Source: Pseudoduganella violaceinigra DSM 15887 (lineage in GTDB: Bacteria > Pseudomonadota > Gammaproteobacteria > Burkholderiales > Burkholderiaceae_D). Taken from it: DNA of 64,000 nucleotides. Positions within the stretch are counted from its first letter, which is position 1; each line of letters starts with the position of its first letter. The stretch covers positions 208,579 through 272,578 of the forward strand of contig NZ_KE384357.1 of assembly GCF_000425385.1 (NCBI RefSeq), written 5' to 3'. The translations under genes and the position numbers were made by a program. Below the pieces are notes generated by a model. The model searched no databases and had not been told where the DNA came from. It saw only the letters and a list, made by a program, of their open reading frames with translations. This document shows, piece after piece, positions 1,012-60,655 of the stretch.

Positions 1012-1473
1012 ATGCTGAACCTTACCCCTGCCGAACGCAGCGTCCTGCGCGCCGAAGCCCATGGCTTGAAGCCTATCGTCCTCGTTGGCGAAGCCGGCCT
1101 GACCCCTTCCGTCATGAAGGAGATCGAGCTGGGCCTGGATTCCCACGGCTTGATCAAGGTGCGCGTTTTCGGCGATGACCGCGAAGCCCGCATCGAAATG
1201 TACGAAACCATCTGCGAGAAGACCGGTGCGGCGCCGGTCCAGCACATCGGCAAGCTGCTGGTGCTGTACCGCCCGAAAGTCGATGCCGAGAAAGCGTCCT
1301 CCGGCAAGGCTGGCAAGGGCATGCGCATGGTGACCATCGTCAAACCAAGCGCATCCGGCACCAAGAAGCCATCCGTGAGCAAGGTACTGCTGAAGGGTAA
1401 CGAGCGCGTTACGGCCGGCGGCACCATCAAGCGCGTCAAGAAGAAAGTCGGCACCAAGAAGTCGACTGGCTGA
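1012..1473 (+). CDS. yhbY: YhbY family RNA-binding protein (CRM domain)
   Basis: This is a small ribosome-assembly-associated protein. Residues 1-90 form a CRM domain (start LTPAERSVLRAEAHGLKP, then VGEAGLTPSVMKEIELGLDSH), which binds pre-50S RNA in characterised relatives. The protein is 153 residues, longer than the roughly 97-residue E. coli YhbY. The extra C-terminal tail (about residues 95-153) is Lys-rich and basic, ending in RVKKKVGTKKSTG, and probably adds RNA affinity. It is divergent from rlmE, a conserved pairing. Its TGA stop overlaps the first bases of a palindromic repeat (1473-1576) that fills the whole space to the convergent DUF4149 gene. No strong ribosome binding site is visible before the ATG. 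Confidence 0.93.
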   Translation: MLNLTPAERSVLRAEAHGLKPIVLVGEAGLTPSVMKEIELGLDSHGLIKVRVFGDDREARIEMYETICEKTGAAPVQHIGKLLVLYRPKVDAEKASSGKAGKGMRMVTIVKPSASGTKKPSVSKVLLKGNERVTAGGTIKRVKKKVGTKKSTG

Positions 1474-1576
1474 AACCGGTAAACCAGTGTCAGACCCGCA
1501 GGGACTGACACTTATACGCGGCCGCCGCAGGCCAAAGTGTCAGACCCCGCGGGTCTGACACTGAACCACCGGTTTA
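1473..1576. repeat. Double-hairpin intergenic repeat (REP/BIME-like), copy 1
   Basis: Outer borders are AAACCGGTAAACC (1473-1485) and CCGGTTTA (1569-1576). Inside are two hairpins. The first, 1486-1512, has GTGTCAG-A-CCC / GGG-A-CTGACAC with one A·A mismatch. The second, 1536-1562, has perfect 12-bp arms AGTGTCAGACCC / GGGTCTGACACT around a CGC loop. The element fills the gap between convergent yhbY and DUF4149. It contains the last base of the yhbY TGA and the whole DUF4149 TAA, read on the minus strand. Related copies occur at 19942-19989, 40593-40740 and 57801-57827. It probably acts as a bidirectional terminator or mRNA stabiliser. Confidence 0.85.
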
Positions 1577-1987
1577 CTGCCTCCAGAGCAGCCAGCCCGC
1601 CAGCAAACTCTGCACCAAATAAATCCCGCTCGACATCCCATGCAGCTTGCCGAAGCTGCCGTCGCCGGAGGCTTTCGCCGCCGCCATCAGCGGCTGCAGT
1701 CCAAAGTGCGACACCACGGTGCACATCACCATCGCCACCACGATCAGCAGCACCGAGCGGCGCCGCTGCGGCGTCCAGTCGCGCGTGCCGACAAACAGCA
1801 GCACGCCCATGGCGCCGCCGCAGCCCAGCGACAGCATCGCTTCCGCATGGAACAGCATGCCGGCGATCGAGCCGGCCAGCACCCGGTCCAGCGCCATGAA
1901 CAGCGTCGGCGCCACCAGGTAGCCGACCGCCCACAGGCTGCCGGCCCACAGGGCGGCCACCAGGAGGCGGACTTTAGCCAGGATCAT
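1574..1987 (-). CDS. DUF4149 domain-containing integral membrane protein
   Basis: This is a 137-residue protein with about four hydrophobic segments (near residues 7-30, 42-65, 78-97 and 120-136) and little soluble sequence. It matches the DUF4149 (TMEM205-like) family by its WAGSLWAVGYLVAPTLF opening, its FHAEAMLSLGCG second segment, and its position beside greA. The molecular function is unknown. Its ATG overlaps the greA stop (TAATG), so it is translationally coupled and in the carAB-greA transcription direction. Its own stop codon lies inside the palindromic repeat at 1473-1576. Confidence 0.8.
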   Translation of the reverse strand: MILAKVRLLVAALWAGSLWAVGYLVAPTLFMALDRVLAGSIAGMLFHAEAMLSLGCGGAMGVLLFVGTRDWTPQRRRSVLLIVVAMVMCTVVSHFGLQPLMAAAKASGDGSFGKLHGMSSGIYLVQSLLAGWLLWRQ

Positions 1988-14338: not shown

Positions 14339-14414
14339 GTAATGGTTGGTCTGCGTGAGAGCTTGAGAATTAGGGCGAGCAGATTTTACCTCAAGGCAGC
14401 GTTTGTCCCACCTG

Positions 14415-14460
14415 GGGTCAGGAAGAAAAGTGGACATTTTTGCAGGAAATGTCCACTTTT
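14415..14460 (-). terminator. Hairpin repeat and terminator downstream of phoR
   Basis: Perfect 14-bp arms AAAAGTGGACATTT (14426-14439) and AAATGTCCACTTTT (14447-14460) enclose a 7-nt loop. On the minus strand the second arm ends in TTTTCTTCC, giving a terminator-like T run just after phoR. GGGGTCA (14416-14422) next to GGACA links it to the repeats at 43935-44083 and 60607-60650. Confidence 0.7.
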
Positions 14461-14481
14461 CGCCCTCGCCAGCGGGGAAAA

Positions 14482-19871: not shown

Positions 19872-19941
19872 GATTTATTGTATGGTTAGCTAACCGGGGA
19901 GGCCTCTCGTAAGCCGCCCCGCTTAACTTCCTCGTACAAAC

Positions 19942-19989
19942 CGGCGAGGTGGTGTCAGACCCTGCGGGTCTGACACCGGTTTACCGGTT
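19942..19989. repeat. Hairpin intergenic repeat between pstS and pstC, copy 2
   Basis: Perfect 12-bp arms GGTGTCAGACCC (19951-19962) and GGGTCTGACACC (19966-19977) surround a TGC loop. Flanking AAACCGG and CCGGTTTACCGGTTT extend the pairing. The core is nearly identical to the hairpin at 1536-1562. Its position inside the pst operon resembles REP sequences that protect an upstream message and reduce downstream expression. Confidence 0.85.
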
Positions 19990-19998
19990 TGCGGAAGA

Positions 19999-40079: not shown

Positions 40080-40595
40080 ATGTCGTTTTCCATGTATTCC
40101 GCATCGATTCCCGTGTTCCGCCAGATTTTGGGCAGCCTGCTGGCCATCCTCGACAAAACCGAAGCCTATGTCGAGGAAAAGAAGATTGATCCCAATGCCC
40201 TGCTGCAATTCCGCCTGTTCCCGGACATGCTGCCCTTTACCCGCCAGATCCAGATTGCCGCCGACTTCGCCAAGGGCGCGGGCGCACGCCTGGCCGGGGC
40301 CGATGTGCCGGCGTATGAAGACACTGAAAAGACCATTGGTGAACTAAAACTGCGCATCCAGCGCACGCTGGCCTTCCTGGATGCGCTGCCGCGCCAGGCA
40401 ATTGAGGATTCGGCGCAACGCTCGGTGACGACCGGCAGCGGGGAAAAGGCCAAGCAATGGGTGGGGCAAGAGTATTTGATGCACTATGCGTTGCCGCATT
40501 TCACTTTCCATGCGACCACCGCGTACAACATCCTGCGCCATAACGGGCTGGAGATTGGGAAGAAGGACTTTATTGGGGCGTGGAAGGCTGAGTAA
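40080..40595 (+). CDS. DUF1993 domain-containing protein
   Basis: The 171-residue cytoplasmic helical protein matches DUF1993, a DinB-like fold family. It starts SFSMYSASIPVFRQILGSLLAILDKTEAY, with RLFPDMLPFTRQIQIAADFAKGA in the middle and YLMHYALPHFTFHATTAYNILRHNG near the end. His residues in the last block may bind metal, but function is unknown. GGAGG lies 10 nt before the ATG and fixes the start. Its TAA stop forms part of the border of the repeat at 40593-40740. Confidence 0.85.
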   Translation: MSFSMYSASIPVFRQILGSLLAILDKTEAYVEEKKIDPNALLQFRLFPDMLPFTRQIQIAADFAKGAGARLAGADVPAYEDTEKTIGELKLRIQRTLAFLDALPRQAIEDSAQRSVTTGSGEKAKQWVGQEYLMHYALPHFTFHATTAYNILRHNGLEIGKKDFIGAWKAE

Positions 40596-40740
40596 ACCGG
40601 TAAACCTGGGTCTGCCCCAAGGGTCAGACCCCGTTTCATCAGCGGCCAAAGGTTCCGGTTGTGTAACCTCAAACCAGGCAGTAGGCCCGGAGACCGTTGG
40701 GGGGCAGACCCTTGGGTCCGACCCCGATTTACCGGTTTCA
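40593..40740. repeat. Paired inverted intergenic repeat, copy 3
   Basis: Borders are TAAACCGGTAAACC (40593-40606) and ATTTACCGGTTTCA (40727-40740). The TAA is the stop of the DUF1993 gene, and TCA is the stop of the convergent DUF1289 gene read on the minus strand. Inside are GGGTCTGCCCC...AGGGTCAGACCCC (about 40607-40634) and the reversed GGGGGCAGACCC...GGGTCCGACCCC (about 40700-40726). They are two palindromic units in opposite orientation around a unique 65-bp spacer, like a BIME. The right unit's internal stem is imperfect. Confidence 0.8.
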
Positions 40741-57775: not shown

Positions 57776-57800
57776 AGCCGGCCAATGACGGCCGCGTATC

Positions 57801-57827
57801 GGTGTCTGCCCCTGCGGGTCGGACACC
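57801..57827. repeat. Hairpin intergenic repeat, copy 4
   Basis: GGTGTCTGCCC and GGGTCGGACACC form a 27-bp palindrome with one mismatch and one G·T pair, around a TGC loop. It has the same layout as the hairpins at 1536-1562 and 19951-19977. It lies 25 bp after the LysR gene. Confidence 0.7.
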
Positions 57828-57874
57828 GGGGTACAGCTTTGTAGTTTTAGTTCAAAAGCAATGCCATTCCGACA

Positions 57875-60599: not shown

Positions 60600-60606
60600 T
60601 TAAAGC

Positions 60607-60650
60607 CGGGGTCAGCTCTGGCAATCGGACAAATTGCCCGAGCTGCCCCC
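60607..60650. repeat. Palindromic repeat between maeB and the ABC permease
   Basis: GGGGTCAGCTC, then GCAAT, pair with ATTGC, then GAGCTGCCCC, with small internal mismatches (about 60607-60625 and 60633-60650). It carries GGGGTCA and GGACA like the elements at 14415 and 43935. It sits exactly between two convergent stops, so bidirectional termination is likely. Confidence 0.7.
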
Positions 60651-60655
60651 GACTT

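Follow-up and report, generated by a model that had tools for sequence, protein, structure and literature searches.

A REPIN-like hairpin repeat fitted to stop codons in Pseudoduganella violaceinigra and its likely link to a TIRYT-like transposase

The gap between two convergent genes of Pseudoduganella violaceinigra DSM 15887, encoding a YhbY-like and a DUF4149 protein, is filled by an inverted doublet of REP-like units from a high-copy hairpin repeat family, the copies of which often abut stop codons. We consider it likely that this element is a REPIN-like non-autonomous mobile element, with stems derived from the terminal inverted repeat (TIR) of a TIRYT-type HUH/Y1 transposase encoded beside spoT, and we are fairly confident that it represents a selfish insertion tolerated at gene ends. 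Coordinates below refer to the window, that is, the whole stretch of 64,000 nucleotides that was analysed. The yhbY-like gene (CRS1_YhbY domain according to Pfam; 1012-1473, plus strand) ends with TGA at 1471-1473, and the DUF4149 gene (Pfam; 1574-1987, minus strand) with TAA at 1574-1576. The 100-nt gap separating the two stops consists of element sequence throughout. At yhbY, the C-terminus and the position of the stop match those in the two closest relatives.

The whole element (1473-1575, 103 nt) is an inverted doublet of the REPIN/BIME kind and can also be folded as a single long hairpin. Unit 1 (1471-1521, plus strand) consists of a TGA/AACCGGTAAACC head, the first bases of which are the yhbY stop, and an imperfect hairpin, AGTGTCAGACCC-GCA-GGGACTGACACT (1486-1512, plus strand; 92%, one mismatch in 12); it matches our unit model R1 with 65.4 bits (E 2.1e-16). 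A spacer (1514-1534) separates the two inverted units. The second hairpin, AGTGTCAGACCC-CGC-GGGTCTGACACT (1536-1562, plus strand), is perfect, with 12 bp and a 3-nt loop, and the head of the inverted unit 2 (1527-1577, minus strand; 49.4 bits, E 5.5e-12) enters the DUF4149 stop. The arms of the outer inverted repeat (1473-1513 and 1535-1575) are 41 nt long and 85% complementary. Thus, the original prediction of a palindromic element with one perfect and one imperfect hairpin, bounded by the stops of two convergent genes, was right in sequence and in coordinates. Compared to dinucleotide shuffles, the element folds with z scores of -11.2 and -11.9 for the RNAs of the two strands (none of 200 shuffles folded as well on either strand) and of -10.7 for plus-strand DNA. 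The core 11-mer GTGTCAGACCC occurs eight times in the window at up to one mismatch (0.78 expected), four times within 1473-1575. No Rfam family reached its gathering score anywhere in the window. Three further copies are present there: a single hairpin matched from both strands (19936-19992; 65.6 bits on the minus and 43.8 bits on the plus strand), a doublet with GGGTC-type stems that begins at the TAA stop codon of a gene that terminates at 40595 (40592-40740), and a single unit (57792-57842, minus strand; 37.5 bits).

Throughout the 6.11-Mb genome, the exact core 11-mer was found 51 times, compared to two occurrences of the reversed control, and 255 versus 50 times if one mismatch was allowed. 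Aligned copies define a unit of about 40 nt, composed of the head (A)AACCGGTAAACC followed by a hairpin of the form GGTGTCAGACCC-nnn-GGGTCTGACACC. A covariance model was built from 22 units, with 150 of 2930 first-look candidates scored, and it returned at least 176 unit matches at E≤0.1 in the genome, some of which represent both strands of one hairpin. Our locus counts rest on 149 matches among those listed, with one listed partial row omitted. These fall into 105 loci, namely 42 inverted pairs, 62 single units, and one triple. The members of 27 pairs are spaced 53-83 nt and those of five pairs 121-125 nt apart, while the ten pairs with a distance of 6-7 nt are one hairpin matched from both strands. 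Among the 145 full-length units, 104 have stems of the GTGTC/GTGCC type and 36 of the GGGTC type. No published description of this hairpin repeat family was found in a literature search covering few subscription papers. The core 11-mer as such appears in 25 papers, and judging from their titles the ten of these that were listed have no relation to it.

We next related the copies to the genes around them. Genes surrounding the 105 loci were called with a home-made codon model trained on the window (93% of which it called as coding), and the ends of the 145 full-length units were analysed, four partial units being dropped. Eighty ends face the 3' end of a gene and 60 a 5' end, three lie inside called genes, and two have no gene. 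A stop codon is located within 1 nt of the unit edge at 49 of the 80 ends facing a 3' end: directly before AACCGG in 35 cases, one base inward in ten, and one base outward in four. In 33 of the 35 exact cases, this stop is TAA or TGA. The set of 80 includes two distances, 672 and 716, which are artefacts since the transposase gene described below was missed by the gene caller. The same caller was applied to three related genomes, where 15 of 21 stop-facing ends fit (30 loci of these genomes). Hence, the proposed search for copies and their flanking stops yielded many copies with a strong bias towards gene ends and stop codons, neither a shortage of copies nor a scatter through coding regions was encountered, and the assumption that the element is placed or retained at gene ends held up. 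Stop codons supplied by REP termini are already on record for GTAG REPs (PMC3733652), so the phenomenon as such is known; new with this family is the sharpness of the fit and the use of TAA and TGA.

Such a fit could also arise without any targeting, if insertion were random and only the gaps between a stop and a ribosome-binding site were tolerated, so that the copies merely look fitted. The start-facing ends would agree with this explanation: 32 of 60 are located 11-40 nt from the start and seven closer, as if the ribosome-binding site were spared, and divergent gaps are avoided. We therefore compared the data with a uniform placement of the doublets in the free space left to them, using the 47 stop-facing doublet ends for which both sides were measured and assuming that 12 nt before starts are kept free. 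At 32 of these 47 ends the element lies at the stop, compared to 18.3 expected, and none of 20,000 simulations reached this number. Thirteen of the 47 ends had no other possible place (free space of 0 or 1 nt), as random insertion would have it, and for the remaining 34 the ratio is 19 observed to 5.3 expected. We consequently regard an absence of targeting as somewhat unlikely. The preferred sequence of the target is less clear. T occupies position -3 at 33 of the 60 start-facing ends, where the neighbourhood is T-rich and the base not clearly special, so a target motif is something we only infer. A preference for cleavage at CT dinucleotides is reported for known REP transposases in the accessible part of PMC8266576; CT is present at -4/-3 at 24 of 80 stop-facing and nine of 60 start-facing ends, which is not decisive for such a preference.

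Alternatively, the element could supply its own stop by landing inside the 3' ends of genes, where a head read as TAA AAC CGG TAA provides a new stop codon. GTAG REPs are reported to provide TAG stops often (PMC3733652), the stop of our transposase gene lies within a repeat head, and in two orthologs the frame enters the hairpin. On the other hand, the reading frame continues into the element at only seven of the 80 stop-facing ends, compared to 49 that end at its edge, and the stops look unchanged relative to those of relatives at L147, L150, L152, and W40, as judged by eye. We therefore think it improbable that the copies generally bring their own stops; insertion next to a stop already in place is the reading that we prefer.

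Eight slots were aligned with syntenic tiles of two relatives, and none of them provided a clean empty site. The relatives carry the same family at five (L147, L151, L152, L153, and W40) and another palindrome at two (L149 and L150), and L154 has no clear counterpart. At four of the eight slots (L147, L151, L152, and W40), the stem differs between species by eye, while the place and the A-rich head persist. No transposition event was seen in this comparison of one genome per species, which counts against the mobile reading, as does the lack of a clean empty site. We nevertheless regard the hairpin repeat as probably mobile.

As predicted, the window itself contains no RAYT gene. The genome harbours six Y1_Tnp genes, and one of them, on contig C9, is located between two inverted units of the hairpin repeat (Y1_Tnp, Pfam, 2.6e-13). 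The heads of both units point toward the gene, and its own stop codon is the one within the downstream head. The unit model gave no match at E≤0.01 for the other five genes (L049-L053), four of which can be read as frames of 242-283 residues with NHYH/NHFH motifs. A bracketing test that took in 30 homolog loci and the five other Y1 loci of this genome revealed inverted units on both sides of the enzyme gene in five of five genomes, our own and four relatives, while matches at other homolog loci were weaker and found on one side, on both, or on none. Bracketing units are also present in six named records from Duganella, Pseudoduganella, and Massilia, but the match scores in four of these equal those of the four relatives, so they probably represent the same genomes. 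In two orthologs (L210 and L211), the transposase frame enters the repeat, so that the hairpin encodes its C-terminal residues, GSDPRV.

The distribution of enzyme and repeat among 60 genomes of the genus, taken from a larger group, points in the same direction. The five genomes with a best repeat match below 1e-14 are the five with an enzyme homolog of at least 60% identity. In the other 55, the best-scoring homolog shows at most 50% identity, and the best repeat match is no better than 1e-10. The five repeat-rich genomes are close relatives, so this co-occurrence does not represent five independent events. Weaker matches (E≤1e-4) occur in 24 of the 55 genomes, one to 88 in each (for example G019, G081, G012, G028, and G032), and probably reflect related palindromic families that accompany less closely related TIRYT homologs. 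Among named homologs, those nearest to the transposase come from Duganella and Pseudoduganella, and a plasmid search returned 25 records, every one below 60% identity. A MITE derived from a classical DDE insertion sequence would likewise be short, with inverted ends and many copies. Such an origin is extremely improbable, given the linked Y1/HUH enzyme with the same repeat on both sides in five genomes and six records, a unit made of a hairpin and a head, and the lack of any target duplication noticed by eye in the listed contexts.

The enzyme itself carries the marks of this superfamily. H60, H62, and Y120, the HuH pair and the catalytic tyrosine of Y1/HUH enzymes, are invariant between our gene and its orthologs. 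A search of the PDB by sequence gave no match. The predicted fold of the ortholog from Duganella sp. Root1480D1 (pLDDT 89.7) is most similar to 4er8, the structure of a REP transposase in complex with a REP hairpin (E 5.1e-8; TM 0.73, normalised by target length), and next to IS200/IS605-type transposases (ISDra2 and IS608).

The original prediction of a REP/BIME form is supported by the inverted doublets and the many copies, but in the strict sense the repeat is not a canonical GTAG REP: the GT[AG]G guide is present at the foot of the hairpin, as defined by script, in only five of 145 full-length units, and 31 contain GTAG or CGTC at any position of the unit or of 12 nt of flanking sequence. 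With the RAYT family NF047646 of NCBIfam, the enzyme reaches 69.3 bits, below the curated cut-off of 80. The NHFH and YIELNP motifs of the enzyme, the former being NHVH in three of five orthologs, agree with the subclass 2.1 row in Table 1 of PMC6006769, whereas its W motif, WD, is unlike the W[EQ] or FQ of this subclass; WE is found only in L211 among five orthologs. Pfam recognised Y1_Tnp as the sole domain and did not find the C-terminal helix-turn-helix typical of subclass 2.1. Judged solely by motifs, most of which agree, the enzyme looks TIRYT-like. According to PMC6006769, the TIRYTs are probably represented by subclass 2.1, for which REP-like sequences were not detected. TIRYTs have inverted repeats at their flanks, many with GGGGWSAS in common (PMC3733652, accessible part); among our own copies this motif occurs in 13 of 145, and at the six closest loci only on one flank of one (L259).

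The accessible descriptions of known systems allow the following comparison. REPINs and BIMEs with RAYTs in Pseudomonas, E. coli, and Stenotrophomonas (PMC3116915, PMC2817692) share with our family the inverted palindromic doublet, high copy number, extragenic location, preferred doublet spacings, and a Y1 transposase gene placed between two inverted units; they differ in that our 12-nt head AACCGGTAAACC replaces the GT[AG]G guide, and the NHFH and YIELNP motifs are not the ones listed for the RAYT subclasses that have canonical REPs. TIRtrons and TIRYTs (PMC3733652, PMC6006769) have in common the HuH motif NH[YF]H, the Y-motif YIELNP, and, in distant homologs, flanking repeats with GGGGWSAS. 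Some TIR families are reported there as moderately abundant and dimeric. Unlike these, each terminal repeat of our family is palindromic and has spread to about 105 loci among the matches listed. GTAG REPs that give TAG stops (PMC3733652) also lie in tandem and convergent gaps near 3' ends with termini overlapping stops, whereas here TAA and TGA stops are formed with the A-rich head.

These data suggest the following course of events. The enzyme would recognise the hairpin in single-stranded DNA, cut at the head, and join the product into a single-stranded target. An insertion beside a T(A/G)A-like sequence would merge the A-rich head (AAACCGG) with the stop codon and leave the protein unchanged. 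Selection would eliminate insertions that disrupt genes, ribosome-binding sites, or divergent promoters, and the transcript of each remaining element would form a strong hairpin a few bases from a stop at most. At the yhbY-DUF4149 slot, where other species have other hairpins, the element may thereby have replaced the native terminator.

We then asked how the repeats beside the transposase might have arisen. A transposase tree was computed from 49 of 80 homolog loci, our own gene, and the E. coli gene; the clade with the hairpin repeat comprises seven rows with 100/100 support, six of them palindromic on both sides, while the upstream hairpin of L259 is interrupted. Five other Oxalobacteraceae have a hairpin on the 3' side only, of GGGTC type in all. 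Many of the more distant homologs carry plain repeats. Across 57 of 80 loci, the motif GGGG[AT][CG]A[CG] is present upstream at 38, its reverse complement downstream at 32, and both at 24, compared to two, two, and zero in control regions, for which only loci of sufficient length could be used. At 38 of the 57 loci and in no control, the gene is enclosed by an exact inverted repeat of at least 12 nt; 28 of these are of the (G)GACAGACC type, five are the palindromic REP at close loci, and five are other sequences. The common plain form, GGGGACAGACCACGGTTT, occurs in Rhodocyclales, Nitrosomonadales, Gallionellales, and others (≤49% identity). Stems of 9 bp or more are rare beside these distant homologs, with hairpins on both flanks at six of 59 loci (of 80 loci, 60 were entered, and the flank filter retained 59). 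In the same orientation, the Duganella-clade unit ends with GGGTCAGACACCGGTTT..., at a similar place and, by eye, recognisably related to GGGGACAGACCACGGTTT. The branch of the E. coli outgroup is extremely long, so the direction from plain to palindromic rests on this distribution and not on a firm root.

The neighbourhood of the gene is conserved as well. spoT adjoins the TIRYT gene at 12 of 13 Oxalobacteraceae loci and is 83-99% identical to our own spoT there, the exception being L289; outside this family a spoT match was obtained at a single locus, L275, with 33%. The 12 loci consequently look like one orthologous locus, and the sequences suggest long vertical inheritance of one transposase locus. 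The spoT-linked loci are L254-L259, L268, L273, L279, L300, L324, and L328, and greB is found on the other side in seven loci with a match.

The plain repeat, searched at up to two mismatches in 37 genomes, remained near control in many and was moderately above it in several (for example 25 versus 4, 21 versus 2, and 17 versus 2). Janthinobacterium sp. CG3 (106 versus 9) and Desulfogranum marinum (30 versus 9) stand out, with many head-to-head pairs. Twenty pairs picked from the former (L334-L353; enzyme locus L268) are mostly near-perfect palindromes of about 60 bp made of two repeats, and they seem to form a separate TIR family that became palindromic and multiplied on its own. These observations suggest that the repeat is amplified more readily once it has become a palindrome.

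From the sequences it is possible that the REP family was born from a transposase terminal repeat. REPs have been suggested to derive from the ends of an ancestral IS200-like element (PMC3116915), and TIRtrons to shed light on REP formation (PMC3733652); the accessible texts of both leave the origin of REP and REPIN families as an open question. As a whole, we can imagine a REP family nascent in the Oxalobacteraceae from one vertically kept TIRYT gene beside spoT. Its terminal repeats would have passed from plain GGGGACAGACCACGGTTT to a hairpin on one side and then on both, and the palindromic versions would have multiplied most, at least twice (in this clade and in Janthinobacterium sp. CG3). 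With insertion aimed at stop codons, gene-end slots would become shared landing pads, where rival palindrome families would displace each other and take on the 3'-end function of the site. We offer this combined reading tentatively and doubt it somewhat more than we believe it. One transposase lineage shows both states, the plain terminal repeat and the amplified palindrome; its tree is open to sampling and its enzyme to assays. The fit to stop codons provides a sharp, testable hypothesis on the target site, and different palindromes in the same gene-end slot of related species amount to a natural experiment on selfish hairpins taking over terminator functions.

The yhbY-DUF4149 slot is a case in point. 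The DUF4149 gene was found in 45 of 61 genomes, and the slot was examined in 30 loci, our own and 29 relatives. In 28 of the 30, our own included, the slot contains a strongly folding region (z < -3 relative to mononucleotide shuffles) of one of several different sequences, and some orthologous slots are plainly terminator-like, with T-runs. Our own element is absent from the slot in all 29 relatives, L093 having a bare GGGTC palindrome. In the two closest relatives (G002 and G009; L085, L086, L240, and L247), the slot holds the palindrome ATGGGGTACGTCCCCAT, which touches both stops. We counted 86 matches to this family in G002 (control 0), 51 in G009 (control 1), and three in our own genome (control 2), and as its coordinates indicate, the family brackets a second TIRYT homolog in both relatives (G002:C88 at about 20.0 kb and G009:C42 at about 9.7 kb). 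With different palindromes at the same slots, gene ends appear as landing pads common to rival families. The pattern at this slot fits either stop-codon targeting with turnover or selection for some hairpin.

The second possibility, taken to its end, would make the element primarily a bidirectional terminator or insulator of convergent genes that is under selection, with its repeat nature secondary. The differing but strongly folded slots and their T-runs would fit, as would the fact that the REP is the sole content between the two stops here, and they keep the predicted termination device alive. The prediction did not gain support from the sequence of the element itself: a 20-kb scan recognised no U-tract terminator at 1473-1576, with at most UUU after the outer stem, in a scan that is weak since it gave 17 sites versus 15.7 by chance and allowed loops of up to 8 nt only. 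Furthermore, 69 of the 105 loci lie between tandem genes, where bidirectional termination is not needed, 30 in convergent and two in divergent gaps, two inside genes, and two at an edge. Of 142 other gaps in these loci, 105 are tandem, six convergent, and 31 divergent, and the corresponding numbers for the 56 gaps of the window are 38, nine, and nine. We therefore judge a primary terminator function unlikely and keep to the mobile repeat tolerated at gene ends. A secondary use is another matter. In E. coli, REPs located up to 15 nt from a stop are reported, in the accessible part of PMC12306157 and citing other work, to stall ribosomes; they share the strong hairpin right after the stop with our copies, which belong to another sequence family. 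Since 49 of 80 ends are no more than 1 nt away from a stop, it is plausible by analogy that the copies influence translation or the stability of the 3' end, and it is possible, if doubtful, that the element is used secondarily as a local 3'-end hairpin at the yhbY-DUF4149 slot.

Other hairpins at corresponding slots were also noticed by eye elsewhere in the window. Between tandem minus-strand genes (14339-14481), a palindrome AAAAGTGGACATTT...AAATGTCCACTTTT is present where two relatives carry the ATGGGGTACGTCCCCAT family, and a convergent gap (60600-60655) contains an imperfect hairpin, GGGGGCAGCTC...GAGCTGACCCC, where one relative has this family.
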